A stretch of 64,000 bases of DNA from positions 537,019 to 601,018 of the forward strand of contig NW_003215453.1 in the NCBI RefSeq assembly GCF_000006405.1, read 5' to 3'. The notes beneath the pieces are model-generated. The model saw only the letters and a program-made list of their open reading frames with translations. It searched no databases and was not told where the DNA came from. The position numbers and the translations under genes are program-made. This document shows positions 1,968-48,200 of the stretch, piece after piece; position 1 is the first letter of the stretch, and every line of letters begins with the position of its first letter. This stretch comes from Perkinsus marinus ATCC 50983. Taxonomy: Eukaryota; Perkinsozoa; Perkinsida; Perkinsidae.

Positions 1968-4900
1968 CTACTCCTCTGAAAGCTGTCGCTCTGCATGGTG
2001 ATGATCCCCGCTATTTCCATGAGGACCCGCACCTTTCCAAACCTGACGGAAAAATCGGCAAAAAACGCAAAAATCCATCAAACCTTCGGAATAATTTCGT
2101 GGCGCGCGGTAATTTTCCAAAAACAAATCAAAATAATCATTTTTTCCCTCACATGATTTCACGTGCCCTCCAAATTTTTCATCACCAAAAGGTCCCCGGC
2201 TCCATTCCCACACCCGTCATTTCTCCCAATATTACCGAAAACCAGTCAACTTCTGTACTTGGTGGGCACGGCGGTATGTCACGAATATCGTCAACTCGTA
2301 GACCCACTCGCAGGGAGTTCTCATCACCAGTCAAGGCACGCTCTTGCCAGTTCGACCCAAACAACAGTACGAAATGCTGAGGGTAATCAAAAGGTCCTTG
2401 GTTCGTTTCCCAGAATATGCATTTTTAAATTTTTTCCTCAACCAAAAATGGCACAATTTTCGTAAATTTTCATAAATTTTTTTATGCTCCTACCCCAATT
2501 CTTGCGGAAATTACTATCTAAAAATTCACATTTTTCAGTGTGAGAAAATATGTACATGATCTCAACTATTGGTGACACTAAACAAATAACGACCAAAATT
2601 TTCATTGTTTTCTCTACACTTCTACCCAAACTCCGATAGGCAACTTTCGAGCTCAGCCGAGGTAACCCAACAAACACCGACAACAGACTCCCACAAGCCG
2701 CAGTATTACCCCCGCAATTCTCGTGAACGAGTTAATCATTTGAAAAACGGGATGCAATAAAAATCCCCGAATGCCATATGATGTACCCGGCCGGCGTATC
2801 CTCGATAACCTGAAAAATCTCAACTGCCACAATCTTTCAAATCAGCATCAATTCGAAAGCCAATCTCGCTCGCCCGATATCTTACCCCCTCCTATCTGAT
2901 GCCAGAATCAAAGCAGCTGAAAGCCACGTCAGAATGACCAACACAATAATCATCACCAATAGAGCCAATGGATCGCGGAATACCAATGTACAAAGAATCT
3001 GGAGAAAAATGCCGCTACCGGGGATCGAACCTGCGCCTTACCACCCATCTATTCTGCTCAATTTAAATTTAGAGACTATTCGAAATAAAATTCCCCCTGA
3101 CTTTTTCCCTTTCCATGAAAAATAGGCATTGAAACACCAAAAAAAATCAGAAAAAAATTGGAAAACAATACATTTTCACTACTAGAATAATTTACAAACC
3201 ATAATTATTTCAATAAAATATTCGGTAAAAATACCCCAGCCAGGGATCGAACCCAGGACCTACCAGAGGGCGCAAGAAATCCAAGATACCCGACAGAATC
3301 GGAATGAAGAAAAGATACGGTTTCATGATAACCGATCGGAAGTGAGTGAGGGATGGTACCCAAAGCAGCTCACGAAGATATCTGAGAAAAATTCGAATAG
3401 ACTGAAATTAGACAAATTATGGAAAACTTTCACGAAAAAATCTACCCGAACAAAACGAGTTCCAAAAATTGTGGTAAAATTTCATCAGAATTTTCCCCAC
3501 GAATACCACAAAGAATTCGAATAAAGTAAAATTAGCCATATTATGGCATAACAGTAACAATATTTTCCTCCAAAATATCGCAAAATTTTCGACTACGTAG
3601 CACATTCGACAAATTATGGCGACTTACAGCATCATAAATCTTGCTGGCGCTGCACTCTCTGTCTCCTGTGCCACGCACTCCAGAAGATTCCTCGGCCGAA
3701 ATCCGACGTCAACCTGAAACCGACAAAATATAATCAAACTACATATATGGTCAACTACGTAAAAATAACAAAATTTCAAGAAAATTTTGAAAAAAATTCT
3801 ATAAATTTCGCGAAAATATTCATAAAATTCCGGTAAATACTACCCTATATACCACTACTCTGAATTCATCCAAACCCGCATATCCCTTTCCCGCACAGGT
3901 TCGATTCCCAGAACCCACATATGGTGATTTTCCAAAAGTCTGCGGCGCCAGTTCCTCAGCCAATTCAATTGTATCCTCATCACGTTGCCGTAACATCAAC
4001 AGCCCAGCATATAAGTTACTCACACTGAACGGCTCCGTCCCGTGTTCATACAAAACCTAAAACTCAAAAATAATTTCGTGGCGCAGTGACGGTATCAGAA
4101 AATTACGAAATTAGGTTATTTTGTAGCGCAGTTAAAATTACGAAATCGATGTAAATTTCCTTGATTAAAAATTCACGCCTTAAAAACCATAAACGAACTC
4201 CTCAAGGACTACTACATGCTATCCTGTATAGTTGCCGTAAATTCTCGCCCAAATTTTCCGAAAATATTTCTTCACTTTTCTCTAAATTTCCCGTAATTTT
4301 TCCGTAATTTTCGGAAAATTTTTCTTCACTTTTCTCTAATTTTCCGTAATTTTTCCATAATTTTTCCGTACTTTTTCCGTAATTTTCCGTACATTTCAGA
4401 AATTTTTCCGTAAATTTTCCAACCCACCTTATCCAATGTTCCTCTATGCCATAAACTGACTCCTCTCTGTGTAGACAAAACCGCCCCGAAAAATTGCGAT
4501 TGAAATCGTATCAAAGTCAACTGGTATAATAACTGCATATCCGCGAACTTCGCCAAATCTTGTGACGGTCTCTGAGAAAAAAAATAAAATTTTACGAAAA
4601 TTATAAAACTTCGCTCCGCCTTTTTCTTACATTTCTCGGATCGATGGTAACAGGAAAATGCACTGCTGCCGGTCTCGTTTCTCTGGAAAAATGGAAAAAT
4701 TTCGGCTATTTTTTCCGGCAAATTTTCTTACTCAAGATTTAATGAATGTAAGTCGAAAGTGCTGGGAAGAACCGTCTCGATATCATCGATCATCAGGGCG
4801 TAGCGAAATGTGGAATTTATACCTGAAAATAGCGAAAAAATCCGCCTAAATTCGAGAAATCTCCCGAAAAAACTCAAACAATAACAAAATTCCCCGCATT

Positions 4901-7900
4901 TTTCGCTTACCGCCATTCGACTTCGGCTCAAATACACCAGAGTTACCAGACCTGACAAAAAAAATTAAATAAAAATGCCCCCACCAAGGATCGAACCCGG
5001 GACCTCCTTACTTCAACTCACCACCACCGCCACTTCCCATTGTCGTCTTTTTCCCAGCATATGGTATCCAAATTTTATTGGCCCAGTAAGCTCCAAGAAT
5101 TCTATTATTCTCAGGTAAGTAGCTGTAGTTTATATCAGGCGAAACCACGGTGTGAATCTGAATAATTTCGTGGCGCGCGGGAAAATATTTACGAATAACC
5201 CCGAAAAAACGAGAGTTTTCCGCGCCAAATGTGCAGAAAACTACTCCTAGAATTTCAGCGAGAAATTTTTTCATAATAATTCTATGGCGCGTGACAAAAT
5301 TCTCAAGCAAAACTCTAAAAAATCGTCATAACAATTTCGTGGCGCGTGACAGTTTTAAATATACTACTACACCAATTCGTGTGCGATAAAATATGCACAT
5401 CATCAACTACACATGTTGGTGACAATATATAAACTGTGTGGGAAATTCTCGCTCAAATCCTCATAATAATTTCGTGGCGCGTGACGTTTTTTTCCATGCT
5501 TACCACTCTCCACGTATCATCCACAGGAGTCAACGCAGACCCACAATCCACCACAAATATTTGCCGCGCGGGTAAGCCGATTTCCAGAAGACGCGATAAG
5601 CACCGGACCAGATTTCTCCTGCCGTCCACATCCCACGTACAAGCGCCATTTCCCGGCAACTGAAAAGAAAAAATTGACAGGAAAAAAATCGCTTCGCTCC
5701 GCTAAGATCTCACCAGAACTATAGCACACACACTATCAGGGAATACAGGGTCACTTCGAGCCTCAACTCCTTCCTCCTCATTAATGGGACATGGCTCGAT
5801 TCCAAGCTGAAGGGAAGAAACGTCACGCGCCACGAAATTATGAGAAGGAACAGCGTCACGTGCCACGAAATTCACCTCAACATCTCTCGTTGAAAGCGTT
5901 ACTCCAGTAGATGCGGTATTGAGCTCGTGAGAACTTTCACGAGGACCTGCAGTGAAAAAAAATAGTAAAATTTCCCGAAAAAAAACTCCAAAAAATTACT
6001 TTTTGCAGTAGACTGTTTTTCCTTCCCTTTCTTGAACAATGATGATGCTATTCCCAGACTCAAAACCTATTCAAAAAATACCCAAAAATTCACCACCCTA
6101 GCACATGAGCCAAACCTACGATAAACTCTATGACATAGTCGCTGAAGGCCAGGACGTCGAGCCAAACATATAAGCCCTGCCTAGAATTACGCGTGTCTGG
6201 GTAGACGATCGGATCCAGAAAAGCTCGTGGGGAAAATCTGAAAAAAATCGAAAATATTCTCTCCCCGAACCGAACCCACGACCTATCCAATACCAAACCA
6301 AGCGCTTAACCTACTGGACATAATTCAATGGTTGATCCAGAAGCACCAAACACATGATGCACACGATCAGCAGGAGATAGCTGATCCCCATTATTGCCGT
6401 GTTGTTACGAACACGCGATGCGACCTGCAACAAAAGTGGGATAAAAAATCCTATTAAACCGTTCTAAAAAACTGGGATATTTTCTCCGATGTAATTTCAC
6501 AAATCGTTGGACATTAAACTCACACACACACACAAATCGATAGACCCACTATATAAAAAAACCTAGGAATATTCGATGTTAATTTTTTCGCGCGCCACGA
6601 AATTCCATCTCCCCTCACCATAGCTTTCTTTCGTGCTCTCAAACCAGCCATCAACCTAAGTCGATATCGCCAACTTCCAGATGCGAACCTAAAAACAGTT
6701 AATTCCTCCTTCCCCAAGAATCGAACCCACGACCTTTCGATTACCTTCTCTTGTGGTCGGCTGACGTCATCGGAGGCTTTCCTGGCTTAGCTGCAGTATT
6801 CTAAAAATGACACATGCTAAAATCGAACCTCCGCCCATCCGATACGCAAACCACCGCCTTAACCATTAAACTACCAATTCTAATAGACTCCCCGTCTCGA
6901 ACTTCGGTCCATTATGATCCAAAGAATCATGCGGTTGCCCAGCCGACACCGGCAAGCCACACCATCTCCTCTCGACCTACCAAATAGAATAACACTCCAC
7001 TTCTGTTCGAAAAATATGGAGTTTCACAAGTAGTGAAAAATATATTCCACAACTACTGCATATCACCGCGAATATCGCGTTTTTCACCGATTATTACGCC
7101 ACTTCAAAAAACGGGTTTAGTGAAACTCCACTATGGAAATTCTCATAAGTTTCCTTTAATGCGCGTCTAATTCAAATTACAACGAACTAATGCTGGAGGA
7201 ATATATGTTCGCTTCCTCAGCTCAGGAGTTTCCAAAGCTACTTATGAAGATTTTTATATAAATTCTGGTAAAAATAAACAGAAACCACCGAAAAATCCCC
7301 AAAATTCCCTCAGAATTTTCATATTATCACCAACACATGTAGTTGACAATAGATTTTCACGACCGTGATATGAAAAACACTAGTGGGAAATATTTTTTCC
7401 GCCAAGATCGCGTTTCTCACGGAGTATTAAGCCACTTCACATAAAACAGGTAGAAATCCACTGCGCATATTTTTCCCCAGTTGAACCCAACATATATTCC
7501 AACACTGTGTTTTCACCCAAACTCACCACAGAATGCATATCCTCTCGAACATCGTTCATGTGAGGTTCCAATATTGACAATTCCGCAGCATGAGTTTCCA
7601 TAACCCTTTTATACGCTGTACGAATCGTCAATACTGCCACTGAACAGTTAAAAAGCAAATCGATCATCTGGGCGAGCGCTAAATTCATTACTACCAATAT
7701 AGATAAGTAGAAATACAAGAGCGCCCAAGAAAATTCCTCTGATGCCGATGATGTCTGCGGGCGAGACGGTACTGCCAAGATCGCAGTACCTATGAGGGCG
7801 AGCAATTTCGTGGCGCGTGACGATTTCATCGTTCAATGAAATATGAATACATATCATAACAAATTACAGCGGATGAAAAAAATCTATTTTTTTTGCAGGA

Positions 7901-9606
7901 AAAAATCACAGGAAAATGAAATTTTCACCAAAAATTTCCAAAAAAATGAAATTTTCTTCCATTTTTCCCCGCTTACGGTTGAACTGCGATAGCCGTTTGA
8001 GGCACCGTGGTAGCCTGATCTTGTTGCAGGTAAATAGTCTGCGTACATCCACGGTCCTAATAAAAATCCCCTCACCAGGGATCGAACCCACGACCTCCCC
8101 CTCACGATATAATAGTTCTCATCCGCTCCCCACTTCACCGTTTTAGCGCATGAAGAATTGCCACCAAACGGTTTTGGTGACGGCTGACCCGACGGCCCAT
8201 TCAAAGCCAACGTACACGACACAGGCGCGTTGCATCGCACCTAAGACAACATACAAAGTTCAAAAATAAAATCTTGTGCAGTGTTGGAGGGATATATGTT
8301 CACTTTCCAAATCTAATTGTAGGAGTTTATATATATGAATTCGGATAAAATTTTCCGAAAAATTCCTCACAATTTTCATATCACCACCAACACATGTAAT
8401 TGACCATGCGCATATTTTCTTCGCTGTGCGCAAAGATACTCACATAGCAAAGATGTCCCGGTCCACAATCTTCATATTGATACCGTGATGGTATCCAACA
8501 CGTCGAGCCAACTCCATTATCCTCTAAATTTCAAAAACAAACAAATAAAAAAAATCTTCGCTGTGCGCGCTGCTCTGAGAAAGATTCCTCACTTTGAAAG
8601 CCCACAGCAGCTGCTCTGTAATTAGTGATGTTATCAAATGAGAAGGTCAATTGGCAATATGTACCATCGACGTTAACATCATGTTCAACCACAGATGAAC
8701 TCGGGCACTGGAAAAGCGGGAATGTATCTGGACGGATGCAAAAACAGTAAATGTGAAACAAACGGAAGAAAATTTTCAAAAAATTTCAATATTTTCCAGA
8801 AAAAAAAATACTAAATTTTCCCTCTAAAACCAGAAAATTCAATAAATTCCCGATTATCGCCTCAAGAACTTTCACAATTTCCACCTTCACCCCTACGTAA
8901 ATACAAAAAACACAAACAATCAACGCTTCGCTCCGCTCACCTTCCGATTTAATCCATGCCAACGACCACGTGTAAATAGTAGCCGCTAGAGCTGCACATA
9001 TTATGAGGTAAATTGCAGCACCAGGAATACGGAAAACCAGAAACGATGTGATCGGCCAGGCCTTCAGCGGGGGGTCCAAAGAGTCTACAGCCTTCTTTTC
9101 TTCCTCAACTCGATTATCACGCTCCTAACCCAAAGGTCCCTGGTTCGATCCCCGCTCGGTGCATTTATTCACCTCATCAGCTTTCGCGACATACACTTTT
9201 CGCGTCTGTTCGTCTCCACCCGGAATTTGCCGCAAATCATGAAGGGGATCAGTCAACGTCACAACAGTCCTGAGCAGAAAAAAAGCAGAATATTGAAATT
9301 TTTTTCCACAAAAAGTACAAAATTTCCGTTTTTTTTCTGAAAAATTACCAAAATTTCAGCCATCCGCCTACAGTAACACCTTGACAATACTAACCTACCA
9401 CCTCAGCTGATATTCGAACCATAAACCTATCAATAGGTACTGAAATTTTCCTCACAATTTCGTAAAAATATTCCCGAAATTTTCCCCCGAAAAACGCTAC
9501 CTTTTCTGATTATTAGCCGATACCCCAGTACTGCTCTTCCGTGACGTGGTCGGATGTAATGGCGGGCGCGCGCGGTTGCTCCTTTGGACGACTATCGGTG
9601 GCACTC
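1968..9606 (-). CDS. Family-2 (GT2) membrane glycosyltransferase, about 25 exons
   Basis: Probable processive-type glycosyltransferase of the chitin/hyaluronan-synthase-like fold, using a nucleotide sugar at a membrane. Exons in order: 9501-9606, 9173-9269, 8941-9124 (first membrane helix, GAAIYLIICAALAATIYTW), 8594-8724, 8450-8524, 8106-8239 and 7975-8056 (Cys-rich luminal region), about 7520-7765 (membrane helix), 6875-6970, 6745-6785, 6619-6688, 6315-6425 (helix), 6119-6237, 6000-6068, 5712-5948, then the catalytic part: 5505-5659 (RCLSRLLEIG, IFVVDCGS), 5012-5150 (LPENNRILGAYWANKIWIPY), 4743-4824 (YALMIDDIETVLP, the DxD-like metal site), 4635-4690 (HFPVTIDPRN), 4430-4573 (FQSQFFGAVLSTQRGVSLW), 3828-4056 (YEHGTEPFSVSNLYAGLLML). 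C-terminal helices lie at 3264-3330 and 2884-2998, and the stop is TAG at 1968-1970. Start uncertain; an upstream exon at about 9957-10038 may belong. Many introns are tRNA- or motif-derived. Confidence 0.72.
2999..3041 (-). repeat. tRNA-derived intron, 43 bp
   Basis: Minus strand: GTAAGGCGCAGGTTCGATCC, CCGGTAGCGGCATTTTTCTC, CAG. It precedes a C-terminal membrane-helix exon of the glycosyltransferase gene. Confidence 0.8.
4952..5011 (-). repeat. tRNA-derived intron, 60 bp
   Basis: GTAAGGAGGTCCCGGGTTCG, ATCCTTGGTGGGGGCATTTT, ending TTTTGTCAG, in the catalytic part of the glycosyltransferase gene. Confidence 0.82.
5822..5872 (-). repeat. Two copies of the GTCACGCGCCACGAAATT motif inside a coding exon
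   Basis: At 5822-5839 and 5855-5872, 33 bp apart. In the glycosyltransferase frame each reads NFVARD (EVNFVARDAVPSHNFVARD), so the dispersed motif is part of the protein here. Confidence 0.85.
6238..6314 (-). repeat. Intron made of a nearly complete tRNA, 77 bp
   Basis: GTAGGTTAAGCGCTTGG (D-arm/A-box), then GGTCGTGGGTTCGGTTCGGG (T-arm), T-rich tail, CAG. The donor GT lies in the A-box. Confidence 0.75.
6689..6744 (-). repeat. tRNA-derived intron, 56 bp
   Basis: GTAATCGAAAGGTCGTGGGT, TCGATTCTTGGGGAAGG, ending CTGTTTTTAG. Confidence 0.78.
6786..6874 (-). repeat. Intron made of a nearly complete tRNA, 89 bp
   Basis: GTAGTTTAATGGTTAAGGCG (A-box and D-arm), GTGGTTTGCGTATCGG (anticodon arm), GGAGGTTCGATTTTAGC (T-arm), CATTTTTAG and a final CTAAG acceptor. 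Confidence 0.78.
7017..7130 (-). mobile_element. MITE-A copy, reverse orientation
   Basis: TGGAGTTTCACAAGTAGTG to GTTTAGTGAAACTCCA, in a glycosyltransferase-gene intron. A second, diverged copy lies at 7351-7461. Confidence 0.85.
7190..7350 (+). mobile_element. MITE-B copy
   Basis: GCTGGAGGAATATATGTTCG, CTCAGCTCAGGAG, CACCAACACATGTAGTTGAC, cut off by the adjoining MITE-A-like copy. Confidence 0.78.
8057..8105 (-). repeat. tRNA-derived intron, 49 bp
   Basis: GTGAGGGGGAGGTCGTGGGT, TCGATCCCTGGTGAGGGGAT, TTTTATTAG. The T-arm, acceptor side and oligo-T make up the whole intron. Confidence 0.85.
8279..8428 (+). mobile_element. MITE-B copy
   Basis: CAGTGTTGGAGGGATATATG, AGGAGTTTATATATATG, CCAACACATGTAATTGACC, CGCATATTTTCTTCGCTGTG. 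Confidence 0.8.
9125..9172 (+). repeat. tRNA-derived intron inserted in the opposite direction, 48 bp
   Basis: The plus strand reads GGTCCCTGGTTCGATCCCCG then CTCGGTGCATTTATT. The gene on the minus strand uses GTGAAT...GGGTTAG as splice ends. It joins YVAKADE to ERDNRVEEEKK. Confidence 0.82.
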
Positions 9607-9726
9607 CTGCAAAAACGAATGGGAAAAATTCCGGAAAATTTTCCACGAAATTTCCAAATTTTCTGCCAACAACTAACTCCACCAAAAAGCCCAAAATTCA
9701 CCCAAAAACTTCCTTTAAAAACAAAT

Positions 9727-10140: not shown

Positions 10141-10499
10141 AAGATCATCACTGATGCTTACTCCATACCATTACTCGCGATAACATAAATGATAAAAATA
10201 ATCTTCCACGTGCGTTCAAACGATCCAATTTTGCTCAATACTGTAAACTCCATAACATGCGATGAAAATCACCATCCTTCATTTCAGCAACCCTTCAAAA
10301 AAATAAACTTCTCAGCAAATTTTAATCAACCACATATTCATCATTTACCCAGAAATCTACGACAATTTGACACACTTTACGAGAACACTTGTTTTTTCTC
10401 AGCAAAAAATCCGAAAATCTTCAACGCAAGATTATTTTCGTCGCAATTTTACCCCGTTCGATTATCACCCTTATTCGATAGTGGTATATCATAGACCTT

Positions 10500-11313
10500 T
10501 GAAATTTCCTGTTCATTCTCATCATCGTTCCCTCCCTTTTTATAAGATACTCTCCTGAGAACTCCGCTGGACGTCGTGCGTCTGTGCCGTATTGAGGGTG
10601 GTGACGCGTTATGCATCGTACGAGGAAGTGGCGGACGAGATTGTGGCGGTACTCCTCTAGTTACACCTGAAGATCTCAAGGTCCCCTTGGGAAGATACAA
10701 AACAGGTCCAAATATGTACAAACGAATATCTAAACTCCTCCGTGCTAAGATACAAAACAGGTCTAAATATGTACAAGCGAATATCTTAACTCCTCCGTGG
10801 TAAGATACGAAACTGGTCCAAATATATACAAACGAATATCTAAACTCCTCCGTGCTAAGATACAAAACAGGTCTAAATATGTACAAGCGAATATCTTAAC
10901 TCCTCCATGGTAAGATACAAAACAGGTCCAAATATATACAAACGAATATCTAAACTCCTCCGTGGTAAGATACAAAACAGGTCTAAATATGTACAAGCGA
11001 ATATCTTAACTCCTCCGTGGTAAGATACGAAACAGGTCCAAATATATACAAACGAATATCTTAACTCCTCCGTGGTAAGACACAAAGCAGGTCCAAATAT
11101 GAACTCCAATGCCGCATCTAGTTCGCCGACACAATTATATAAACTACAAATACATACATCCCTCCCTTTACTACTACCACTCCCTTTATAACTCTCAGGC
11201 GTGTCTGCTATCTCCATTGACGACGTTGGGGACGCCGACAACGAGCAACTGTCATCTTCTGTTGAAGTGGCGGCGACTCCTTCAGGTAGATCGATGGTGG
11301 GCTTATTAGACAC
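10500..11313 (-). CDS. N-terminal-like gene fragment related to the glycosyltransferase genes
   Basis: An ATG at 11313 opens a Ser-rich, acidic N-terminus (MSNKPTIDLPEG). After the 55-bp tandem array (10692-11105), an exon at about 10560-10665 reads GVPPQSRPPLPRTMHNASPP, echoing the Pro/Arg-rich VPPxVVQRS...RPPLHP exon seen at 9501-9606 and 495-605. This suggests a third copy of the same 5' gene end, possibly truncated, or the true 5' end of the downstream gene. The array would then lie in an intron. No catalytic glycosyltransferase motif is visible in this piece. Function not assignable. Confidence 0.33.
10692..11105. repeat. 55-bp tandem repeat, about 7.5 copies
   Basis: Units start AAGATACAAAACAGGTC at about 10692, 10747, 10802, 10857, 10912, 10967 and 11022, with a diverged unit near 11077. 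Neighbouring units alternate between two versions (TCTAAACTCC and TCTTAACTCC), so a 110-bp higher-order dimer has been amplified. Probably intronic in the minus-strand gene fragment. Confidence 0.92.
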
Positions 11314-12141
11314 GATTTACAAGGGTAATAAACAAGGACTAATCTCAATGAAATCAACAAGAGAAAATTCCAGTGATGCATAATTCAGTCTTCATCGGTC
11401 CTGAAGAAAATAACTACAAGCACGCTTTAGATTTTATGAACGTTTTAGTTCACGTGCAAGTCGTTGACAAGTTGTTTTGAAAGAGCATGCGGAGTGATGG
11501 GAGCTTTCAAACTACAAGATATTGACAAGGCAAATGGAAAGCATTGAATGGAATCCTCTACACTAGTCCAAGCGTGATTGTTATACAAGCTTTGATAGGG
11601 GTTAGACTGTGTGACGCTGGCGTGCTGTGCCGGCGTCGTCGTCTTCGGGAAATTCTCGCGCGCCACGAAATTCCTCTTCGTCATCGATGGTCCCGGGTTC
11701 GAATCCACGCTAAGGCGTTTTTCCATCGACTTTTCGGCAAACCAGAGCGAATAACACTATAGCTCCAAGAGAGAGTCTTCCAGCGGCATCGTGGCTGATG
11801 GTGGAACTCCTTAACCTTCGCACTGTAGTATAGCTAATATACTACGTACCATCGTTCCGCCCGTCTCTCTGCGCGGGCCCTGTTTATTTGTTTGACTGGT
11901 TAAGGCTGTTGATAATGAACGTTGTTGCAATTGTGACTCGTTTAGTCTACCATGTCAGACTACGTGTATAATTCCGGTTACCACTTACTGGTAATTGGGT
12001 TCAGCAGTTCGAGGTCTGATTATTGATTGACTCAATTACTGGCACAACGTCTCATTTTACGAATGATATTGGCGGCGGCCACCTGGCGATCCTTTGTTGT
12101 TTTGGCAAACCATTATCAATAGTGGGTTCACTTCCGGATAG
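11314..12141. other. Intergenic stretch without a recognisable gene
   Basis: Short open frames only. It holds one copy of the CGCGCGCCACGAAATT motif at about 11655-11671, followed at 11686-11720 by a tRNA T-arm-like piece (GGTCCCGGGTTCGAATCC) and an oligo-T tract. It could contain an unrecognised small gene with a tRNA-derived intron. Confidence 0.5.
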
Positions 12142-13275: not shown

Positions 13276-13334
13276 GCGTGTGCGTGTAAGAAAGGACTCG
13301 TTTTCTTGGCTGATAGTGACACCAATCCCTCCCT

Positions 13335-19300: not shown

Positions 19301-19303
19301 GAC

Positions 19304-29707: not shown

Positions 29708-32700
29708 ATGGCCGTCAGGTCTAAAGGCTATCGACCTGTCTCCGGCTCTATACACATTGGTGAGTCGTCCTCGTCGTCCTCCTCGTCGTCAAGTGAAGAT
29801 GATGGTAAGCGAGACGTGACACGCACGCGGAAGATTAATAGAATCATGGGGGATACGATAATGGAAGAGGAAGAAGATCGGGAGGTTTCTAAAGCGAGGA
29901 GGTACTACGTGGTATAATGAGGTTCATTGAAAGGTGTCGTTGTATATCAGACACGGCATGAGACTTTTTCACCAATGTCGTTTTTAAAGACAGTGTTTAT
30001 CCAGGCTGTTCTAAAGGCATGTTTTTTATGCCACTAACTTTTCCATAAATCCATTGTTAGATTGATATGCCGACATACTGTATGAACACATTTTCTAGGA
30101 CCTTTTTGTGATAGCACCTGCATATACTCTTATATACTATAGGTATGCACATCATTAATGAGTATGTGCGACCAATATTCGCATTGTTGATGATTATAAG
30201 TGACTTATATGTATCATGATAGAGATTATGAATGTCATCAGAATCTTCTGGACTGCCATGGTGAGATCCGCAGCCTCTGGCATATCTGCCCCGAAAATTC
30301 CAAGCCGAAAATGGTCACGACCGGACCTGTTTCGTATCTTTCTTTCCGTCACCTAAGATACCACAATTCGGACCAATTTTATTCCCCCAAATTAATTCAA
30401 TATTCTATGTTGTAGTCGACCTCGCCTTGTTTGAAGGATTGATCGTTCAGATATATTTGAATTTTTTCAGCCCTTACTCGTCAAGATTTTCCTGGCCATC
30501 TAACCGACAGTTCATCTCGGCTGGGATTGGGCTAGTTGCGGGAAGCATCGCTGCGGTAATAGAAATTATACGCCTTTCGAGATCAACTTATGGACAGCTC
30601 TCTTTTGTATACACTGGGAATTGATTGATTCATATTGATGTTTATTTCAGCTACTTCCCCTTGGTTTCCCCTCTGCTGACGCTGCCGCCCAGCGATGTCT
30701 GGGGATCTTGGTCGCTGCGGCCATCTGGTGGGTTCTCGAGCCCTGGCCGCCGTATGTCACTTCCCTTCATTTGGGGCTGCTTATTGTAGTATTGGGAGGT
30801 CTGGTCGCTCCTGGTTGGTATGCGAATATCGAGTTCCACCGTGTGACGTGTCGCTGCTTGGCAGTCCATCGCTGTGTGTGCTCTCATGGACCTTTCTCAG
30901 GTTATTTCTCGCGTCATGCGGGTTCCAGATCCATCGTCAATGGCGTTGGTTCCTGCCAGGATTGTTGGGAGTGAAATCGGAGAATGTGAGGCGAGATGAT
31001 TATTAAAAAAAGGAATTTGGTAGAGTCGTGTCTACTTTGGGGCTCTTTATTAGGGATAGATTCAACTTGCTTGGTATTTGTTCAGAGTGTGAAAATACGC
31101 ATATGGCCAACTAGGCGTGTTGGTGCCGATATGAAATACGAAAATATGAATATAAAATATCCTAGAATTCAGCTCAGCTGAGGAGATCGAGCATATATTC
31201 CCCCCTGTATTCGAGTGGATTGGACAGAGCGCCTGAATTCATGAGTAGCTGCTGACTTACATCAGACTTAACTATATTAAATGATCGTTATCTATAGCGT
31301 TGATCACCCGTTGACTCTTCCGGTAGATCCTCTCAATATTGCAGTTTCACCCGTTTTACGCGAAGTGAAATGTGAAATGTGTTTTTCACTAGTGTTTTTC
31401 ACATCACGGATGAAACTCCATTAACTTATAACACTTATCAGAGTGTCACCACTGCTTTCTGTTAACCATAGCCGATAGGACGCTGCAGCGCACAGCTGTT
31501 GGACGATAGAATGTTAATTTTCGTCGCCCCCAGTATTGGCTCCTCATAATTTTAGCCGAAGCTTTACCCCCGTCCGCCGCTGCAATACTGGTGTCTGCAG
31601 CTTTCTTCGACCCGGTTATATTTCTATTCATTTCCGGCTTCGCTATGGGTCAGGCATTGGAGAAGTAATGACGATATCATGGTTTTGATGTAACATTTTT
31701 ATTTAGGTTTCATATAACGGAAAGGCTCGCGACCAGATTGCTTTCGAGAGTGTCGACTGGTGGTGATCGTCTTGCCATTGTAATAGTGTTGAAATCTGCC
31801 TTGCTTCGCTCCGCCTTTTTTTGGATTGAATTCTGTTTGGTAGGTTATATTGCTATTGGGACTGTTAGTCTCGGGAGCACTATCGAATGTGGCAGCAGCA
31901 GTTTTATTAACAGCGGTGGTAGCGCCCGTAGCAAGAGAGTTGACGGATTCTGAATCGAAGAGAGCTATATTGGGAGTGGCATTTGGTTGTACTAATGGGT
32001 ACTCGCAAGTTCGATTCTCGGTGGGGGCATTTTTCGGATTATTTACCAGAGGATCTAGTAAAGTTTCAGAGGGAGTTTTAGAGTTTTTTCATGGAGTTTT
32101 CGAGGGTCTTGACTTGGGCTTCGCTCGGGTTAGAAATGTTAGGTAACATTCGAACTCGTCCAAATCTTAGTCGACTTTTTGGCGATATTCGCGTCAACTT
32201 GGGAAAAATCCATATCTCGTATGTGAACTTCTGTGTTTTTAGTAGATTAGGAATGATCCTAGAGCTCCTACAAGTTGCATCATATCGTTATAGTCTACTC
32301 ACTCTCGTCAGTTCTCGGAATGCACTCTGTGAATAACGAAATGCGTATATTATAGTTTCTTGTTTGCTATTTATATTCATAGCCGAAATCCACCACTTCT
32401 TACTTAGGCAACGTCGGTGGCATGATCACGCCGATCGCCTCCCCTCAGAACGTTATTGCTCTCGTGGCTCTGCGTAATATTCGCTGGTAATTTATCGGGC
32501 GGATAACCGCAATTTTCAGGTTCGAATGGCGGCTCTGATCTGTCGTTTATGCAATGGATCATTTTCGCTCTCCCTGTTTGCGCAATCGCAGCTGCGTCAG
32601 TTTTCGTGGTGTTGAAATTTATGTATAACGGAAGGCGGAGCGATGCGAAAATGGTGGAGATGACTGAGAGGCGACGAAATTCTAGTGAGGGTAATGATCT

Positions 32701-35162
32701 TCCCAGTAGCACTTGAGTGTTCAGCAAACTGATTGTCAGTGTCGGAATTGATTATATTCGTAAAATGTAAATTTTTTTGAGTAATTTCTGGAACCGTAAT
32801 TTGCGATGTAGGAATATTAAATATCGTTAATTGCTGGTATAGTTATATTGAAGTATAGGGTATTCCATGTAATATGGAGCGACAAAGCATATACCGCGAC
32901 AACAGGCACTTTCGCGTTGTGCGTGCGTGCAGAACTATTCTGGGTTAACTACGAGGCGTAGGAGGCCACCAGATAGATCAAATGACTCCTCTATATGCCG
33001 AGGTTTGTGCAAAAAATCGGAAAACTCAATTTCTCGAACAGCTCGGCGAGATATGCACGAAAACTTTTTTGATGGGGAATGTCTAACTCGAGAATCGAAC
33101 CGGGGACATACGTCAAGTTCATTGATCATATCAGCAAACGGGGACCGAGCGAGCGCCGCCCCTCCGTTATGAAGACCTAGTATATCAGTATCCCTTCATA
33201 TTATATATCCATATCGATAGCTTTTATCATGTTATCATACGTTATCACTTTATAACAGTAATATATAATCATTGTGAATGCTCATGAATTTGAAGGTCTT
33301 GATGACCGTATCCAGGTGTGTATGGAGAGTCTGGAAGCTGTTCAGATGTGGAGTTGCGTCACGCGCCATTAAATTCCACCGATTGGATTATCCTTGGTAA
33401 GCTGATATTGGGTTAACTCGCCCCGCTCTTTAGGTGTTCGCTATCAGGTATAGTAGCAATAACCGTGTTTTTGTGGATGATATTCGATATAGTGGGACTT
33501 GACGGTGTATTTGGAAGTATGGGAATGGTCGGGCTGATGGCTGTCGTAGCTCTACATAGTCTGGGCATTTTAACGACGGAAGATTGGCATGGCATGCAGG
33601 TGAGCTTGGGATGCAATCGATTCTTTGCCAGTATATGTCTCCTTATAGTGCTAGTATGTCTGAGATGAGGAGCATAGATTTCTATTATATGTTACTAATG
33701 AAGATATTCATATAATTATGTTATGTTAGTCAGTAGGCATTGGATTTAACACGTAAGGAAAGTGTCTCAAAATTCATACATTTCGTGGAGGAATCGTTGC
33801 CTCTCGAGCACAACGAAGTGTTATATGGTGTGCATTGAGTTGTATGTGAGTGTGTTAGTACATATAAGATATTAATATAATCCGATTATGATACGTATAC
33901 CTAGTAGTAGAAGCATTTGAAACACTATCATCTGGCTGATTAACGATATGTAGCCTGACTCTGAGGTTCAGCATTGCCTGGATTTTTTCTGTGTACAATG
34001 CGAGCTCAATATCACATATTGGAATGTACTCAGTTGATTCATTTGATTTTGACGACTATTCACGAGATCATTATATAGTTCACTGACGAGCCCTCGCGGT
34101 CCGGCATAGTCATCGCCTGGATTTTTGCTATATATAATGCTAGTTCAATATCGCATGTCGGAAATATAGGAAATGTACTCGGTTTTTGGTATTTGATTCT
34201 GACGACTATTCAAGAGATCATTATATAGTTCACTGACGAGCCTCCGGGGTGCGGCATAGTCGTTGCGTGGATTTTTACTGTTTATAATGCTAGTTCAATA
34301 CCGTGTATTGAAATTAGAAATATAACCTGTATTAAGTTTGGTGTTAAATAGTTCCCATTTCAGTGGTCCGTCCTGACGCTACTTGGTGGAGGTGTAGCTC
34401 TCGGCAACGCAGTGGAGAGTTCGGGCCTTTTGCGTATTATAGCTGATGAAATATCAAAGTCTTTGGAAGGATCAAGTGTCTGGGCGAGCGCGGTTTGCTT
34501 CTTCCTCTGCACGGGTTTGGTCGCCAACTTCCTCTCCTCGACAGTGTGTGCCATTGTGGCCTTGCCTGTTGTTGCTAAGGTAAGTGGTGGTGATTATTAT
34601 TTTTGGGGCGAGCGAGATTTGCATTACCTTAGGTTGGCGCTGTTGTTGGACATCCACGCTTGTTTACGGTTGGGTGTGCGTTTATGACGTCAGCAGCGAT
34701 GGGTCTGCCTGTGAGGTGAGGTGTCTATGTGATTAGTTCAATTCGATGTTTTGTGAGTGTGGATGCCACTGTTAGTTTCATCAGCTGAGCTCAGGATTTC
34801 ACACACAAAGTTTGTTGTGGAGGTTTATGTATGAATTCGGGTAGAAGTGTGCAGAAACCCATAGAAATTTCCTTGGAATTTTTTACAACACATGTAGTTG
34901 ACCATTTTCAGGTTTTCATATTTTCGTCTTTCAGCTCGTTCCCTAATGCAAACGCCGCAGGAGTGGTCAATCTGTCGCTGCCTGGAGCGCCAACTACCCC
35001 AATACTACAGTCAAGAGACTTTGTAAAGTCAGGTATGCCGGGATCGATCCGGGGACCTTCCGGTTGTTAAACAGCTTGCTGTCAGGTTTTGCTGTGGCGT
35101 TGTTGATTTTAGTCATCATAAGCACTGTGGGGTATGCATGGGCTATGTTCCTCGGCTGGTGA
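29708..35162 (+). CDS. SLC13/DASS-family anion permease, Pho91-like
   Basis: Polytopic transporter of the divalent-anion/sodium symporter family, closest by motif to the low-affinity phosphate permeases Pho87/90/91. Exons: 29708-29911 (start, poly-Ser acidic N-terminus), 30471-30606 (first helix), 30651 to about 30985 (LLPLGFPSADAAAQRCLGIL, EPWPPYVTSL), 31556-31664 (FFDPVIFLFISGFAMGQALE), 31707-31779, 31844 to about 31987 (SNVAAAVLLTAVVAPVAREL), 32408-32473 (GGMITPIASPQNVIALVAL, the first family signature), 32520-32690, 33448-33599 (LTTEDW), 34364-34579 (LLGGGVALGNAVESSGLL, NFLSS), 34633-34715 (TSAAMGLPV), 34935-35032 (SSFPNANAAG, the second signature), 35086-35162 (last helix, TGA). I see no SPX domain at the N-terminus, unlike yeast Pho91. 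The phase between 29911 and 30471 does not close, so one small exon is probably missing from my model. One intron (35033-35085) is tRNA-derived. Confidence 0.9.
31083..31207 (-). mobile_element. MITE-B copy, shortened
   Basis: CAGAGTGTGAAAATACGCATATGGCCAACT...CAGCTGAGG...CATATATTCCCCCCTG, in an intron of the anion permease gene. Confidence 0.7.
31340..31420 (+). mobile_element. MITE-A copy, shortened
   Basis: TGCAGTTTCACCCGTTTTACG to GATGAAACTCCA, 81 bp, in the same permease intron as the preceding MITE-B. Confidence 0.75.
32691..33447 (+). other. Long intron of the anion permease gene
   Basis: Donor GTAATG after the exon ending at 32690, acceptor CTATCAG at 33447. It holds an antisense T-arm-like piece (GAATCGAACCGGGGAC at about 33093) and a GTCACGCGCCATTAAATT motif at about 33359-33376. 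Confidence 0.7.
35033..35085 (-). repeat. tRNA-derived intron (antisense), 53 bp
   Basis: GTATGCCGGGATCGATCCGG...GTCAG. The body is a T-arm read on the minus strand (GGTCCCCGGATCGATCCCGG). Splice sites are fixed by the frame entering the last helix of the permease (VKS then GFAVALLILV). Confidence 0.8.
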
Positions 35163-39200: not shown

Positions 39201-42200
39201 TATTCTCAACGGGGTTTATAAGTGTCATCACGTATCATATTGGAGTTTAGATTTGAATTCGGGTAGAAGTGAACTGGAATTCTGTGAAAATTCCCTCTGA
39301 ATTTTCGGTTGTCTTCACCAACACATGTAGTTGGGCATGTGCATATTTCCCCACACTGCCATGACGTGCGTCTCGGTAGGTCAAGGTCCTCTCATCTGCT
39401 GGTCTGGAGCTACTAGTGCAAGTGCCGTTTGCTGCAGCTAAGGACTTTCCGGCGCTCATGGACGATCTCGACGCTGAGATAGCTGGCAGAAGTGACACAT
39501 TGAAAGGCCTGGTAAGCCCGAGTTGGGCCGCCGCCGATTCGAGCCGGTCTCTGACTTTGATGGTAGGCTCACAGTTCACTTCAGTTGATCACATATGGAG
39601 TGTCGGTGACGAATTTGGAAGAAGTGTTTCTGAGAGTTGCGGACCCGAGTGCGGAGGAACGATCGGAAAGTGTTATAGCAAATTCACGGTGAGATACTGG
39701 GTCGGGTATGTGGCTTTATTTTCATCGTCCGATGTAGTCTAGCTGGTTAGGATATCTGGCTTTCACCCAGACGACCCGGGTTCGAGTCCCGGCATCGGAA
39801 TTTTTTCATTGATTTTCGACTTGCCAGAAGCCATGCTCTGAGTCCCTCAGGAATCAATCTCTCAGAGCCGTAGTTCCGGTAGACTCAACGAAGCACGATC
39901 CTCTACAACCGGCAGAGGACGAAGGTGGTAGAATCCCGGAGACCATTATAGATATCCCGGAAGACGCCGACGACGACGGAGAGTTGATACTCGAACCGGC
40001 GACTATGGGGGAACAAACAAAGGCATTGATACAGCGGAGGTAAGGAGATCGTGTTATGGTGGAGTTTCACCCGTTTTACGTGAAGTGGCGTATTCCTCGA
40101 TGTGAAATTCCCGATATTCGCGGTGGTTTATCAAATATATTTTTCACTAGTGCCCTTCATGTCACGGGTGAAACTCCATTGTATTTATATATTGTGATGT
40201 ACAACTCATCGCTGGCTCTATCAGGGTACGATTCGGTCTACGCGACAAGAAGATGTTCATGTGCCAACTACTACTACCGCTTATCCTCCTGGCCGGCGCG
40301 TTGGCTCTTGTCAAACAGGGCGCTAGTGAACGAGTAAGTGTAACAGTTGTTGATCTATTCCAACCAAGGGTATTGAGATAACGCAAGTGCGGTGTGATCA
40401 ATGTCTTCCGCTTTTGATGGATCAATAGCAGCCATGCATCTACACAGATCATCAGAAGTCGATTGAATTGGGAAAGTTTTTCTCTATCTGATTCGGCTCT
40501 GCTCGAGCCTCGTCTGCACCGTTTCGGGCAAGTCACCGTTATAAGATGCGATTATTCGATGCGCGCTGTGCGCAACATCGCACAAGGGTATTGAGATAAC
40601 GCAAGTATAACCTAGATAGTATTGGTCTCGTATCAAGTACACCGATATAGGGGAAAACTATGTGCCACAGCTCAAAAACCACATAGCTATTCTATTACTA
40701 AGAAGTGAAAGACTTCGAGATCTCGAGAGATCACTAGGCATTGACAACAGCAGATGTAGCGCACGTAATTGTATATCAGCTGTACACGGATTTGATGGAT
40801 AAGAATATATTCATAGGTTGAAAAGATGCAGAAAAAATGGGTTTTTTTCCAAAAAAGTGGGCGAATGATCAAAAATTAACGCGAAAAAGATGTGACATTA
40901 TTTCACTCTGACTTTGTCCTTACATCAGGTGGCCCCACCAATGGTGATAAGAAGTGCCGATCTTAACAAGCCCTTGCAGAAATCAAACGCGCCTCGTCCA
41001 TGGCACGTTATTCACGCAGGGGGCGATTCGAATTTCGGTAATTTACGTTGGAGTTTTACGCGTTTTAGGCGAAGTGGAGGAATACTATGTGCGAAAAACG
41101 CGATATGGAGTGAATAGAAAATACTTAGCGAGTTATATGTGACTTATGCACATCATCCGTTTTACGCGTTATTCATTGCTTGTATGCGTTCCTTGACTTT
41201 TGTTTTCTATATCATGGGTAAAACTCCACTTATATCGATCAAGCTGATCATTGGAGTTTCACAACCCGTTTAACTAAGTGAAGTGGTGGCGTAATACTCT
41301 GTGGAAACGCGGTGATATATAGTAGTCGTGAAATATTTATTTTCTGGTGTTTTTCGTATCACGGTCGCGAAACACCAGTACTGTTGTTAGCAGGCCCGTT
41401 TTGGTCCCCATATTGTGCTGAAGCTGATGATTACTGTGACACGTTGAGGACGGTGGTGACTCCACTCGATCAGAGTAGTTCTCTGCTGGCTATGCAGTCA
41501 CACTTGCGAGAAACACGGAATGATTACGAGGTGTGGTAGGGGGTCTGTAGTGACGTTGTGATAATTTAGTGACACTGTCTGGGATGAAGTTTTTATTCTG
41601 GAGTTCTACCCGTTTTACGTGAAGTAGCGTAATACTTTGTGGAAAAGGCGATATTCGCGGTGATATGCAGTAGTCGTGAAATAGACTTTTTCGCTAGTTT
41701 TTTTCATGTGAAACTCCAATATTCATTCTGCATATGTGAACACCAATATGAGCATTATCCTGTTTTTCTCAGGCCTCCTCGTATATCGCATTTTCGCATT
41801 TGGACAACGCCACAGACTTGCAACGTGAAGTGGGAGATCCGCTCGCACGAACTGTTCTGTGGCACAACCTCACAGCGACAGCGTCCTCGGCGATAGCGCT
41901 GAATGCATATGTGAATGCGTGGTTCGCGGCACACGGAGTTGATATTAAAGTAGGGAGGTCGCGGGATCGAATCCCAGGAGAGGCATTTGATATTGGAGGA
42001 ATATATATTTGATTTACGCTGCTGAGCTCGGGAGTTTATATACGACTTAGAATAAAAGTGTTGGAAAAACGAAAAAAAATCTTAAAATTTTGTGAAATTT
42101 CCTCACTAATTTCAGTAGTTTATATACGAGTTAGAATAAAAGTGTTGGAAAAACGAAAAAATTTCTTAAAATTTTCTGAAATTTCCTCACGAATTTCAGT

Positions 42201-45200
42201 AGTTTTATACACGAGTGTGAATAGAAGTGTTGGAAAAACGAAAAAAATTTCTGAAATTTCCTCATTAATTTCAGTAGTTTATATACGAGTTAGAATAGAA
42301 TTGTTAAGAAACCAACAAGAATTTCCCAAAAATCCCCTCAGAATTTTCATATTATACCCGACACATGTAGTTGACCATGTGTGCCTCACCTTACATTGGA
42401 CTTTGAACATTCGCCCTCGAGTTTACTATTGTGCAGTGTGGGAAAATATGCACATGGTCAACCACATGCATCGATGATAATATGAGGAAATTTTGGGAAG
42501 TTATTATCATTTCTACGAGTTCAGGTAGAAGTGCACAAAAACCAACAGGAATTTCCCAAAATTTTCTCAGAGTTTTCATGTTATGACCAACACACGTAGT
42601 TGACCGTGTGCATGTTCCCCCCCCCCCCCCCCCCCACACTGTTGCTCACAATTCGCCTTATCTCAGGTCACCGTCGTGAACCATCCGATGCCACAGACTT
42701 TGTTCGAGCAGAACATAGCAGTAGTGGTGTCTGGAATTTTATCAACTATTGTAAGGGCGAATTTTGTGGCGCAGTGAAAAAATTAACTCGTTTGTTGAGA
42801 GCGATCTAAATGCTTTGTATTTGTTGGTGTTGTTGTCACATTAGGAATATATGTTTACTTTCCTCAGCTGAGCTCAGGAGTTTGGGTAGAAATATTCAGA
42901 AATCAACAAGAATTTCAACTCGGAAATTTGATACTGTCATCAACACAAACTTTCCAGAAATTAAAGGCGCTGAAAATAACGGTTTGGTTCACACTGTAGT
43001 AGGGGTCTTAAAACGATATTTTGTTGTTTTTTCAGGCGGTCATTTGGGCGTTTGCGTTTATTCCAGCGGGAATATGCAGCTATATAGTGATGGAAAAGGA
43101 GAAGGATGTGAAAGCACAGTTGGCTATATCAGGGTAACTCATTGGAGCTTCATCCGATTTACGTGAATTGGATTACTACTTTATGTGAAGAAGTGTATCG
43201 AAAATACTTGGTGATCTCAGTGATATGTTTTACGCGTTATTCACTACTCACATGCGTTTTTCGCGAAGTGAAATGTGAAATAGGTTTTTCACCGGTGTTT
43301 TTCATATTACAATCGTTTGCTTGTCGAGCGTTTTTATCCCTATCTGGAAAAATATGAAAAAACATGAAAAATGTGGGAATTTTCTCGAGGACATTTCTGA
43401 GTGGTTTCTGTACACGTGTTAAACCCCGTTTGTGAATTTCTGTAGTTGTTGAGGAAAGCGAATATTAATTCCCTTGCTCATCTACGCCCGATGTTGAAAT
43501 ATACGCCTGCTTTCCTCACCTGAGCTCAGGAGTTTCCAAAGCTAATTATGGGAGTTTATATACAAATTCGGGTAGAAGTGTATAGAAACCAACGAAAAAA
43601 TTCCAAGTTTTCTCCACATTTTCATGTTGTCACCAACACGTGCGTGATTCGATTTATTGGAGATCCACGATCCGTTTTACGTGAAGTGGCATAATACTCG
43701 GTGAAAAAGGCGATATTCGCGGTGAAATATGTTTTTCACTGCTGTTTTTTATATCACGGTCGTGAAACTCCATTGATTTTCACTCAGATGCTCTACCACG
43801 GCCTACTGGATAGCTCACTTCATTTTCGATACGGCTTTTAACCTCTTCACAGTTGCTGTTGCAATAGCAGTGCTGTATGCGTTTGATATGGAAGCATTCA
43901 CAGATTCGGATAAAATCGCTCCAACGATTATGCTACTGTTGTTGTTCGCCCCGTCAGCCTCAACGTAAGCTGTGAAATAGAACTGGGGATCTTTTCAGTG
44001 GAGTTTCACCACCCGTTTTACTAAGTGAAGTGAGAGCGTATATTCGCGTGAAATATGTTTTTTTCCATACCACAGCTGAAATTACAATATTTCAGGTACG
44101 CATATTTGATATCATTTTTGTATAAGACGCAATTCTCCGCGCAAACGGTGACGATAGTGCTGAACATTGCTGTTGGAACGATCGTGGTTATTGTGGTTTC
44201 GGTGCTACAGACGATTCCTGAGGAATTCTGCGAAGACTGCTTGGTGAGGCAAGGAGGGATATTATGTGTGATGCGAATCTACTTTTTCTGTAGTAGTGTT
44301 GGAGGAATATGCGTTTACTTTGTACGGAATTTTCATATTGTTACCAACATATATGGTTTAATGGAGTTTCACGACCGTGATATGAAAAACACTAGTGAAA
44401 AATATATTTTACGTTTTTCACCGAGTTTTACGCCACTTCACGTAAAATGGGTGAAACTCCAATATACGAAAAAATATGCACATAATCACCAACTACATGT
44501 GTTGGAAATACTGGGAAAATTCTGGAGTAAACTGCTGTTGGTTTATGTACACTTTTACCCGAATTCGTGCATAAACTGCTATGATTACTAAGGAAACTTC
44601 TGAGCTCAGCTGAGGCCCTCAGCCTGAGGGAAAGATCATATATTTGTCCAACAGTGTTATTCCTACAATTTTTGTTATTTTTATTGGAAAGTGAAGTGGC
44701 AAGTGATATGCGCAGTAGTCGTGAAATATATTTTTCACTAGTGCTTTTTTCGTATCACCTTGGTGAAACTCCGTTGATTTTTTGATTCAGGTTGCTGGCA
44801 ACGTACTGATGTGGATATTCCGTTTTATACCACCATTCGCGTTGGGCTTTGGTTTTTATCGTATGGCAATTTATGTATCCTTTCTTGGAGTTGATCCATG
44901 GGGGTCGGAGATTTTTGGTGAGTATTAGTGGAATTTAGTGACAAGATTAGTAGAATTTAGTGACAATATTAACTGAATTTAGTGACAATATATGTATAAG
45001 TAGAATTTAGTGACAGTATATATGTATGAGTAGAGTTTGGTGACAGTATTAGTAGAATTTAGTGACAGTATATGTATGAGTAGAGTTTGGTGACAGTATT
45101 AGTAGAATTTAGTGACAGTATATGTATGAGTAGAGTTTATTGACATCATATGTATTAGTAGGATTTAGTGACCAACTACATGTGTCGGTGACAGTATGAA

Positions 45201-48200
45201 AATTCTGAGGAAATTTTTGGAAATTCTTATTGGTTTCTGTTCACTTCTACTAGCGGAATTTCTATAATTAGTGAGGAAACTCTTACGCTCAGCTCAGGAA
45301 ATTAAACATATATTTCAACACCGTAATTTCCGTCAAATTTCTTGACAGGTACATGTACGAACAAAACTCTGGGCACTCGAAATCAGTGTTATGGTGGAGT
45401 CGCTGATGACTTGGTGTATCTCGCGTTTGCCGGTATGGCATACCTCTTATTATGCATATGGTTGGATCATCTTGGCACGAGTGGCAAGTGGTTATCGTAT
45501 AGGATGAAATTGGAAAAACGATGGTAAGTTGCGGCTGTTGTTGGGGAGAAGGAAATTATGATGCTTTTGGGAGAAAATTTGGAGAAAAACCGAAAATTCA
45601 CGAGAAGAGAAAATTCGAAATATATTATGAACTTGAGGTAGCAATTAGAGTTTATAGGAAAAACAGAAATGAGGAAAAAAGAAATTATGAATCATAAAAA
45701 GCCAGAAACTAAAAAAATATGAAATGAACTAAAAATTATGAAAAAAATAGAAATTATGGGAAAAACTAAAAAATATGAAAAAACAGAAATTAAAAATTAA
45801 GAGAAAAACTTGGAATTAAAATTATGAGAAAAAACTAGGAATAAAAAGAATTACGAAAAAAGGTAGAAATTACGAAAATTGGAAATTATAATGCTCGTGA
45901 TGGAAAAAATTAGGCATCTATGAATTTTCGTATTAGTCCGATACCCGAAGATCAGCTAGCGGCAGAAGATGAGGATGTTGTGGTAGAGAAAGAGCGAGTT
46001 GCGAAATTGGAAAAACAAAAACAAATTCTGGCAGTTGATAATGTCAGGAAATGGTAAACATTTAACTCTGGTATTTCCTTTGAGGATTTTTGATAAAAAT
46101 CTAATGCGTATGCTTGTGTGAAAATAGGAGTTTTACTCGTGTTACGTTAGGGGGTGGAATATGCACATGTGTTGGTGATGATTACGAAATTTCTTAATTT
46201 TATTGGAGTTTCACCACCCGTTTTACGTGAAATGGCGTAAAACTGGGTGAAAAAGGCGATATTCGCGGTGATATGCAGTAGTCGGGAAATATGTTTTTCA
46301 CTAGTTTTTTTCATATCACGGTCGTGAAACTCGATTGTTGGTTTATGTACACTTTTATGCGAATTCGTATATAAACTGCTATTGTTGGTGAGGAAACTCT
46401 CGAGCTCAGCTGAGGAAAGAGAACATATATTCCAACATTGGTTAAGTTCGACAAATAATTCTGGGAGTTGATTTTTTCTATGAACTACTGTGCGTGCGTT
46501 TTTTGCATTATGTAGTTTTACGCGTTTTACGTGAAGTGGAGTAATACTATATGTGAAAAACGCGGAGTGAATAGAAAATACTCTGCGAATTATGCGGGAC
46601 AATTTACCCCACTCGAACACATTATCAGTTTTACGCGTTATTCATTGGATTTTCACGACTGTGATATGGATAACACGTTTCACGACTACTGAATATCACC
46701 GCGAATATCGCGTTTTTCGCCGAGTATTACGCCACTTCACGTAAAACGGGTCGTGAAACTCCATTGCGTCCTTTGCTACTGTTTCTCCATATCACGGGTG
46801 AAACTCCACAAAAAAGGGTTGGCGTATTTTCTTACGTTAAGTGGTTCTACTCTACCTTAGAAAATTACCGCGCATGACGAAATTATGTTTAGTTACCTCC
46901 CGAGAGGCTCCCTAGTAGCTGACCCCTCGAGAGCTGTGCATGCAGTGAAAGGAGTTTCCTTTGCTGCTGATTCGGGACAAGTATTTGGGTTGTTGGGAAT
47001 CAATGGTGCTGGGAAGACTACGACGTNNNNNNNNNNNNNNNNNNNNNNNNNNNNNNNNNNNNNNNNNNNNNNNNNNNNNNNNNNNNNNNNNNNNNNNNNN
47101 NNNNNNNNNNNNNNNNNNNNNNNNNNATCGATTTGTATCAGATTCAAAGTTATGTGCGGACTGTATGCACCTACGGAGGGCGAGGTGTGGGTCGCTGGAA
47201 CTACGGTTGGTGCAGATGTAGGGTTGGAAAATATGCTTGCTTTTCTCAGCAGTGGAGTTCCCTTACTACAGTGTAAACCAAGCAGTTGTGTAGATCTTGG
47301 TTTTTCAAGAGTTTAGGCTACGGAACGTCGCTGATCGAATCACACTGTTGATATTATTTCTAAGTTCATTTTCGACTTTCCGGAAATTTAACGCTTCGTG
47401 TAACGGTTTGGTTCACACTGTATAGAATTTCGAAAATAGATTTGAGTAGAGGTGTACAGAAACGAGAAGAAATTTCCTCCGAAAAAATTCTCAAAATTTT
47501 CGTATTGTCATCAATTTTTTCCCACATTGATCGATTTCAGACTTCGAAGTGTCGAAGGAATCTCGGCTATTGCCCGCAGTTCGACGCGCTCCTGGATCAG
47601 ATGACCACGAAGGAGCATCTTGAGCTGTATGGTCGTTTAAAAGGGCTGAAAGGACATCTCCTTGATAGTGCAGTTGGGAGTACGTTGAAGCAGTTGTCTT
47701 TGGAAGCGTGAGGGCGTGGGTTCGATCCTCGGTGGCGATATTTTTCTGATACAGGTATAGGGATAAGCGCGCTGGAAGTCTAAGTGGAGGAAACAAAAGG
47801 AAACTCTCCGTGGGAATGGCAATTGTGAGTATTAGAGAGGATTTGGAAAATGAGAAGTGAAATGCAGTTCGGAATTTCCTATCATCCCAGCTCGAAATTT
47901 ACGGAAATTTTGAAATTAAGGGAATTTTTTAATATCATTTTGGCATTCGTATAGGAAGAAATTCTGGTATAAACTCTTCATGCAATTCAGCGAGAAGAAA
48001 CTTTCTCGGGAGTTTTTGGGAAAAAATTTTCGGTTGAAAATTTGTGTACTAGTGATTTAGTTTTTGGAAATCGTCTTAAATTCAGATCGGTCGACCCCGT
48101 ATTGTATTCCTCGACGAGCCCAGCACTGGTATGGATCCTGTATCGAGACGTTTCCTGTGGGGAGTAATTCAACAACTGGCAATCAGCCGCAAAAGTGTTG

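Follow-up and report, generated by a model that had tools for sequence, protein, structure and literature searches.

A large introner-like family of minimal introns in Perkinsus marinus built on a B-box/terminator-like module

The origin of introns is a long-standing question, and most of the introners described so far have been linked to DNA transposition. A stretch of 64,000 nucleotides from Perkinsus marinus ATCC 50983, a shellfish parasite and relative of the dinoflagellates, raises this question anew (contig NW_003215453.1, positions 537,019 to 601,018 of the forward strand; hereafter "the window"). A preliminary description of the window reported at least ten introns that share one layout, resembling the 3' end of a transfer RNA (tRNA), and proposed that they form a tRNA-derived introner family. 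Is there such a family, are its introns removed exactly, and where does its module come from? As set out below, a large introner-like family of introns, built on a module that resembles a B box and a terminator of RNA polymerase III (Pol III), is real, while the mobility of this family and its descent from a tRNA are inferred.

The consensus of the module is the 35-mer AGGTC-N3-GGTTCGATCC-N10-CATTTTT, which fits most copies and corresponds to a tRNA 3' end in its blocks and their distances (positions 44–73, followed by a T run), this tRNA-like spacing being imposed by the search patterns. In the window, GGTTCGATCC with at most one mismatch occurs 15 times against 3.43 expected, a count reached by none of 100 shuffles. 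Across the assembly (54.46 Mb in 347 contigs), the 27-base motif GGTTCGATCC-N10-CATTTTT is found at 1247 places with up to two mismatches, compared to a single place for the reversed-pattern control, and the 35-mer that results from adding AGGTC is found at 990 places with up to three mismatches, compared to none for its reversed pattern.

Short introns of 43–60 nt consist almost wholly of the module. Protein homology indicates that splicing would remove such introns exactly, given that the joining of the exons restores a conserved protein across the junction in seven unrelated genes (Table 1). This bears out the claim that such introns occur in several unrelated genes, now extended to a genome-wide family; homology to ABCA3 likewise supports the claim that the intron at 47708–47754 is excised exactly. 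Coding context was judged throughout by open frames and homology rather than by annotation or RNA. A Pfam search with ten translations, hand-picked out of 53 whose splice sites had been chosen by the longest open frame (so that their frames are biased), returned matches for five, four of them spanning the junction, and none for the other five. A PPTA match ends short of the junction, near which the alignment with farnesyltransferase has a gap of three residues.

Homology represents stronger evidence for introns than the phase test, in which splice sites were assigned by one fixed selection rule. From 89 places in the genome, for most of which the context was fetched, 87 distinct contexts were obtained, or 75 after the removal of near-duplicates; a usable GT and AG was found in 64 of these, and in 39 of the 64 the phase that results from splicing scored higher than the other two (about 21 expected). 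Along with the family itself and the exact splicing by homology, an excess of CAG after the T run is established: CAG lies within 14 nt of it in 58 rows genome-wide, compared to 21 for the reversed trinucleotide GAC, with one element counted twice in each list. Two unrelated introns, at loci L003 and L004, are identical at 38 of 38 positions, beginning exactly at the GT. Outside this pair, the donor GT lies, by our reading, about 1–19 nt upstream of AGGTC, so that the 5' splice site is not always the proposed GT(A/G)AGG; the acceptor AG either adjoins the T run or follows it at a distance of up to about 19 nt. Similar introns are, in sum, present at non-homologous positions in unrelated genes.

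The likeness to a tRNA 3' end resides in the conserved blocks of the module, which correspond to positions 44–48, 52–61, and 72–73, with the T run following at tRNA spacing. The best gene copy of the tRNA-Thr(UGU) of the same genome agrees with the module at 21 of 22 block positions, within an inventory for which the best 63 candidates were scored and 12 anticodon labels assigned, some of them weak. The module thus presents non-stem tRNA residues at tRNA spacing, of which the T-loop and the spacing were themselves imposed by the patterns; among 128 elements gathered without imposing positions 44–51, C48 is present in 90%, G46 in 73%, and A44 in 67%. The same tRNA-Thr(UGU) holds GTAA at positions 35–38, and GTAA occurs at this tRNA offset in five non-tRNA elements and in no more than three at any other offset. 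The pattern TAGAGC...GGTTCGATCC gave eight matches, three of which are tRNA-Thr(UGU) genes. A single tRNA parent with the acceptor GCCYYY was also considered and discarded, with no matches. As a separate observation, a T run and CAG come immediately after two tRNA-Arg(UCG) genes (L041 and L046), an arrangement that looks like a tRNA gene at the 3' end of an intron.

The module is neither restricted to one orientation nor to introns. Inverted copies also form introns, as judged by open frames (9125–9172 and 35033–35085). Once 14 elements from the loci of tRNAs and spliced leaders had been set aside, 31 of 127 elements exceeded a sense-intron score of 8, compared to 4.0% of 822 random positions, and 10 of 127 exceeded an antisense-intron score of 8, compared to 1.0% of those positions; the remaining elements may lie outside introns or are of doubtful status. 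Furthermore, a repeat of about 330 bp resembling a short interspersed nuclear element (SINE), with a common start and body, holds AGGTC-N3-GGTTCGATCC-N10-CATTTTT internally. As the module is not confined to introns, "introner" describes the fate of many copies, and not necessarily a dedicated element.

We consider it probable, at roughly 60%, that a module akin to the 3' end of a tRNA-type gene (transcribed by Pol III) was copied widely and became minimal introns in exons. According to this model, a tRNA-Thr(UGU)-like or SINE-like source would have provided the blocks, and Pol III-type transcripts ending in a U run would have seeded 5'-truncated copies, a step proposed because the 3' end is fixed and the 5' end variable, which is its sole basis. 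The B box GGTTCGATCC, with CATTTTT 10 nt later, would in this way have reached about a thousand or more places, and a copy landing in an exon in either orientation would have turned into an intron of minimal size. If the copy lies in sense, its T run would serve as the pyrimidine tract, with an AG within a few nucleotides, and the donor would be a GT located at the 5' end of the module or immediately before it. A more specific version, which we regard as rather unlikely, derives the introns from the 3' half of a tRNA of the Thr(UGU) type plus its U tail, so that the GUAA of the anticodon loop would have become the 5' splice site and the terminator the pyrimidine tract, with the T-loop block still under constraint. 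If true, this would be the first tRNA-derived class of introners, as far as literature searches show.

Several results weigh against the Pol III-related origin. Regarding splicing, 11 of the 75 elements have no usable GT/AG in sense, 25 of 64 fail the phase test, and many copies are located outside recognisable introns, with only the 31 sense and 10 antisense elements mentioned above exceeding a score of 8. Regarding descent, the T-stem pairs 49:65, 50:64, and 51:63 exhibit no covariation among 76 distinct copies (P 0.90, 0.85, and 0.33, respectively) or among 128 copies (P 0.95, 0.34, and 0.87); a weak excess at 50:64 (z 4.3) among 142 copies that include genuine tRNA genes is gone once these genes are removed. 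In addition, 26 introns fold no better than their mononucleotide shuffles (mean z −0.19), and a comparison of 20 loci with Rfam gave no tRNA match (E ≤ 5) at the element. The missing stem covariation and the lack of folding excess in the 26 introns lead us to reject a structured T-arm, and with it the T-arm of the preliminary description; tRNA derivation, on the other hand, retains the blocks at tRNA spacing and the match to tRNA-Thr(UGU), but not a recognisable tRNA at the loci searched. Given that the blocks match in spite of the lack of covariation, folding, and Rfam tRNA hits, what the module preserves of a tRNA 3' end is the linear, non-stem portion, which is at the same time the B box and terminator of Pol III, and not the structure.

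Regarding movement, no empty site was found in the one available assembly for 22 joined intron flanks, and paralogs matching both sides of a junction also carry the intron there; two partial matches cover only one side and are uninformative. No target-site duplication (TSD) beyond GT was detected in the 26 introns, whose positions 3–8 show no excess, while exon 2 begins with GT in 10 of them. Recent insertion is therefore unsupported. Of the proposed introner family, the similar introns in unrelated genes remain; TSDs, which are not universal among introners, and empty sites were not observed in the introns examined.

The conservation of the module is unequal along its length. A search with the flanks, but without the T-loop block, retrieved 91 places (56 when the T-loop was added to the pattern), and GGTTCGATCC is perfect in 49 of the 91 although not imposed, which corresponds to a divergence of about 6% per position. 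Flank mismatches from 0 to 3 rise as 3:3:16:69, from which the 21 imposed positions are about 35–40% diverged, a rough binomial estimate that treats duplicated contigs among the 91 as independent. TTCGAT is retained in three introns of paralogs that were identified solely through the similarity of their exons, and the introns of L160 and L085 share a core that is identical at 33 of 33 positions, with exons about 82% identical. This pattern fits constraint in the source elements, constraint in the introns, or gene conversion, and offers a direct test of source constraint versus function inside introns. Separately, the flippase paralogs L137 and L138 are 74% identical upstream of the intron and 99% identical downstream of the module, a step that suggests a conversion breakpoint at the intron.

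Such conservation could be read differently, with the introns being old and the module a selected intronic signal, the rest of the intron turning over. Candidates for this signal would be a B-box site of the TFIIIC type, a GUUCNANNC site of the Pus4/TruB type, or a splicing aid. The contrast between GGTTCGATCC and its flanks, the retention of TTCGAT, and the L160/L085 core favor this explanation; nevertheless, only three paralog pairs are unbiased, and the same pattern could arise from gene conversion or from constraint acting on the source elements. Since copies are also found outside introns and inverted, and many introns of the window lack the module by eye, we regard this alternative as doubtful.

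Still less favored, and in our view quite unlikely, is the possibility that the modules are remnants of a tRNA-derived SINE (the repeat of about 330 bp or its kin) or of tRNA pseudogenes that were inserted into pre-existing introns. The SINE-like repeat does carry the full module, and the window holds, by eye, a decayed tRNA-like sequence at 6800–6880 (minus strand) ending in GGTTCGATT...TTTTTAG. However, the 26 introns listed are only 44–60 nt long and comprise little besides the module, with no SINE body beside it, and the search of 20 element loci gave no Rfam tRNA match. Ascertainment, in which the patterns would merely have picked short GT...AG stretches with a T run, is highly improbable: although the patterns impose the blocks and spacing, and a T run and an AG are common in introns, the controls gave zero or one match against about a thousand, and introns are backed by homology.

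Returning to the window, all seven complete introns that had been proposed are confirmed with GT...AG ends at their coordinates, as is the inverted module in two of them, 9125–9172 and 35033–35085. In five of six window introns checked, one frame runs open through the junction with 18 or more codons to either side, the exception being 2999–3041; the joined frame at 35033–35085 later stops, in TVGYAWAMFLGW followed by the stop codon. The single layout attributed to these introns is seen in most copies, but those at 6689–6744 and 35033–35085 lack a properly placed CATTTTT on their 3' side, and their T-loop block deviates by one base. Three further 5' ends had been proposed as well, of which that at 41950 starts in frame and that at 3263 (minus strand) starts with GTAGGTC, whereas the GT of the third, a candidate, is at 31999 and not at 31988. 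Two partial proteins of Perkinsus olseni share 79% and 86% identity with the first exon of the ABC gene, and a further protein shares 97%; together with the spliced-leader-like sequences described below, this points to a Perkinsus, probably other than P. olseni.

Table 1. Introns and modules in the window, and genes elsewhere in the genome in which homology extends across the junction.
Feature	Position or locus	Strand	Basis or remark
43-nt intron, module in sense	2999..3041	-	GT...AG; open frame only 7 codons upstream
Module at 5' end of longer intron, begins GTAGGTC	3227..3263	-	
60-nt intron, module in sense	4952..5011	-	Frame open across junction
56-nt intron GTAATCGAAAGGTC...TTTTTAG, 3' side of module diverged	6689..6744	-	18 open codons upstream
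49-nt intron, module in sense	8057..8105	-	GT...AG, open frame across junction
48-nt intron of minus-strand gene, module inverted (on +, 9134-9168)	9125..9172	-	Open frame only
Candidate: module at 5' end of longer intron, anion-transporter-like gene	31999..32034	+	Gene label by eye
Module within copy of the SINE-like repeat of about 330 bp (copy about 32880-33130)	33075..33109	-	
53-nt intron, diverged module inverted, splice joins DFVKS and GFAVALLIL	35033..35085	+	Open frame only
717-nt intron of ABCA gene, module at 5' end (41956-41990)	41950..42666	+	3' end by eye
47-nt intron of ABCA gene, exact removal	47708..47754	+	Homology to ABCA3 across junction
Flippase	L138		Homology across junction
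PRPP synthetase	L150		Homology across junction
DEAD-box helicase	L076		Homology across junction; single alignment gap far from junction
Histidine-kinase ATPase domain (HATPase)	L003		Pfam homology across junction
L7Ae	L085		Pfam homology across junction
WDR19-like propeller	L125		Pfam homology across junction

A family of introns that hold hardly anything besides a tRNA-3'-end-like module would suggest a Pol III- or RNA-mediated route to intron birth, and would extend the range of introners to Perkinsozoa, which are sister to the dinoflagellates. According to the main text of Gozashti et al. 2022 (PMC9860276), in which the words SINE, tRNA, and Perkinsus do not occur, introner families are mostly consistent with DNA transposition, and some lack TSD or terminal inverted repeats. 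The Perkinsus introns resemble the introners of that text in the recurrence of similar introns in unrelated genes, in a similarity that may reach close to the splice sites, and in the aquatic protist host, but differ in that their module is tRNA-3'-end-like and is also found outside introns. Introner elements with direct and inverted repeats are described among the non-canonical introns of Amoebophrya (PMC7789003); these are likewise repeated introns in a parasite of the dinoflagellate lineage, whereas the Perkinsus module introns are GT-AG and no such repeats were noticed in them. For dinoflagellates, the lineage sister to Perkinsozoa, many introner families have been reported (Roy et al. 2023, as cited in PMC11453091).

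In searches of the open-licence literature, mostly without full text, neither a tRNA-derived introner nor any introner from Perkinsus came up. tRNA-derived SINEs share the B box, and the SINE-like repeat of this genome bears the module, but the intron copies have neither a recognisable tRNA 5' half nor a SINE body. In rice, one new intron of a catalase gene has reportedly arisen by the insertion of a SINE. The extra TFIIIC sites, which consist of a B box only, are similar in having this box without a tRNA gene; they are not known to occur as introns.

Other features of the window and genome are listed for completeness. Genome-wide, the spliced-leader-like CCGTAGCCATCTTGGCTCAAG or a close variant is present at 97 places, with up to three mismatches to the dinoflagellate pattern. 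An element labeled by eye as a retrotransposon of the long terminal repeat (LTR) type, with a CCHC gag-like frame, is located at about 14808–18033, and both of its terminal direct repeats hold a spliced-leader-like 21-mer (C251:551968 and 554816). By eye, introns at about 40058–40180, 41600–41720, and 46202–46336, and more at 39–55 kb, are filled with inverted repeats GGAGTTTCACCCGTTTTACGTGAAG...GTGAAACTCC resembling miniature inverted-repeat transposable elements, and are possibly a second introner, of the DNA-transposon type. Also by eye, the short motif AATTTCGTGGCGCG is dispersed at about 5161, 5333, 7803, 22966, and other positions, and tandem arrays are present at about 10680–11090, 12120–12872 (which runs into an N gap), and 59200–59700.

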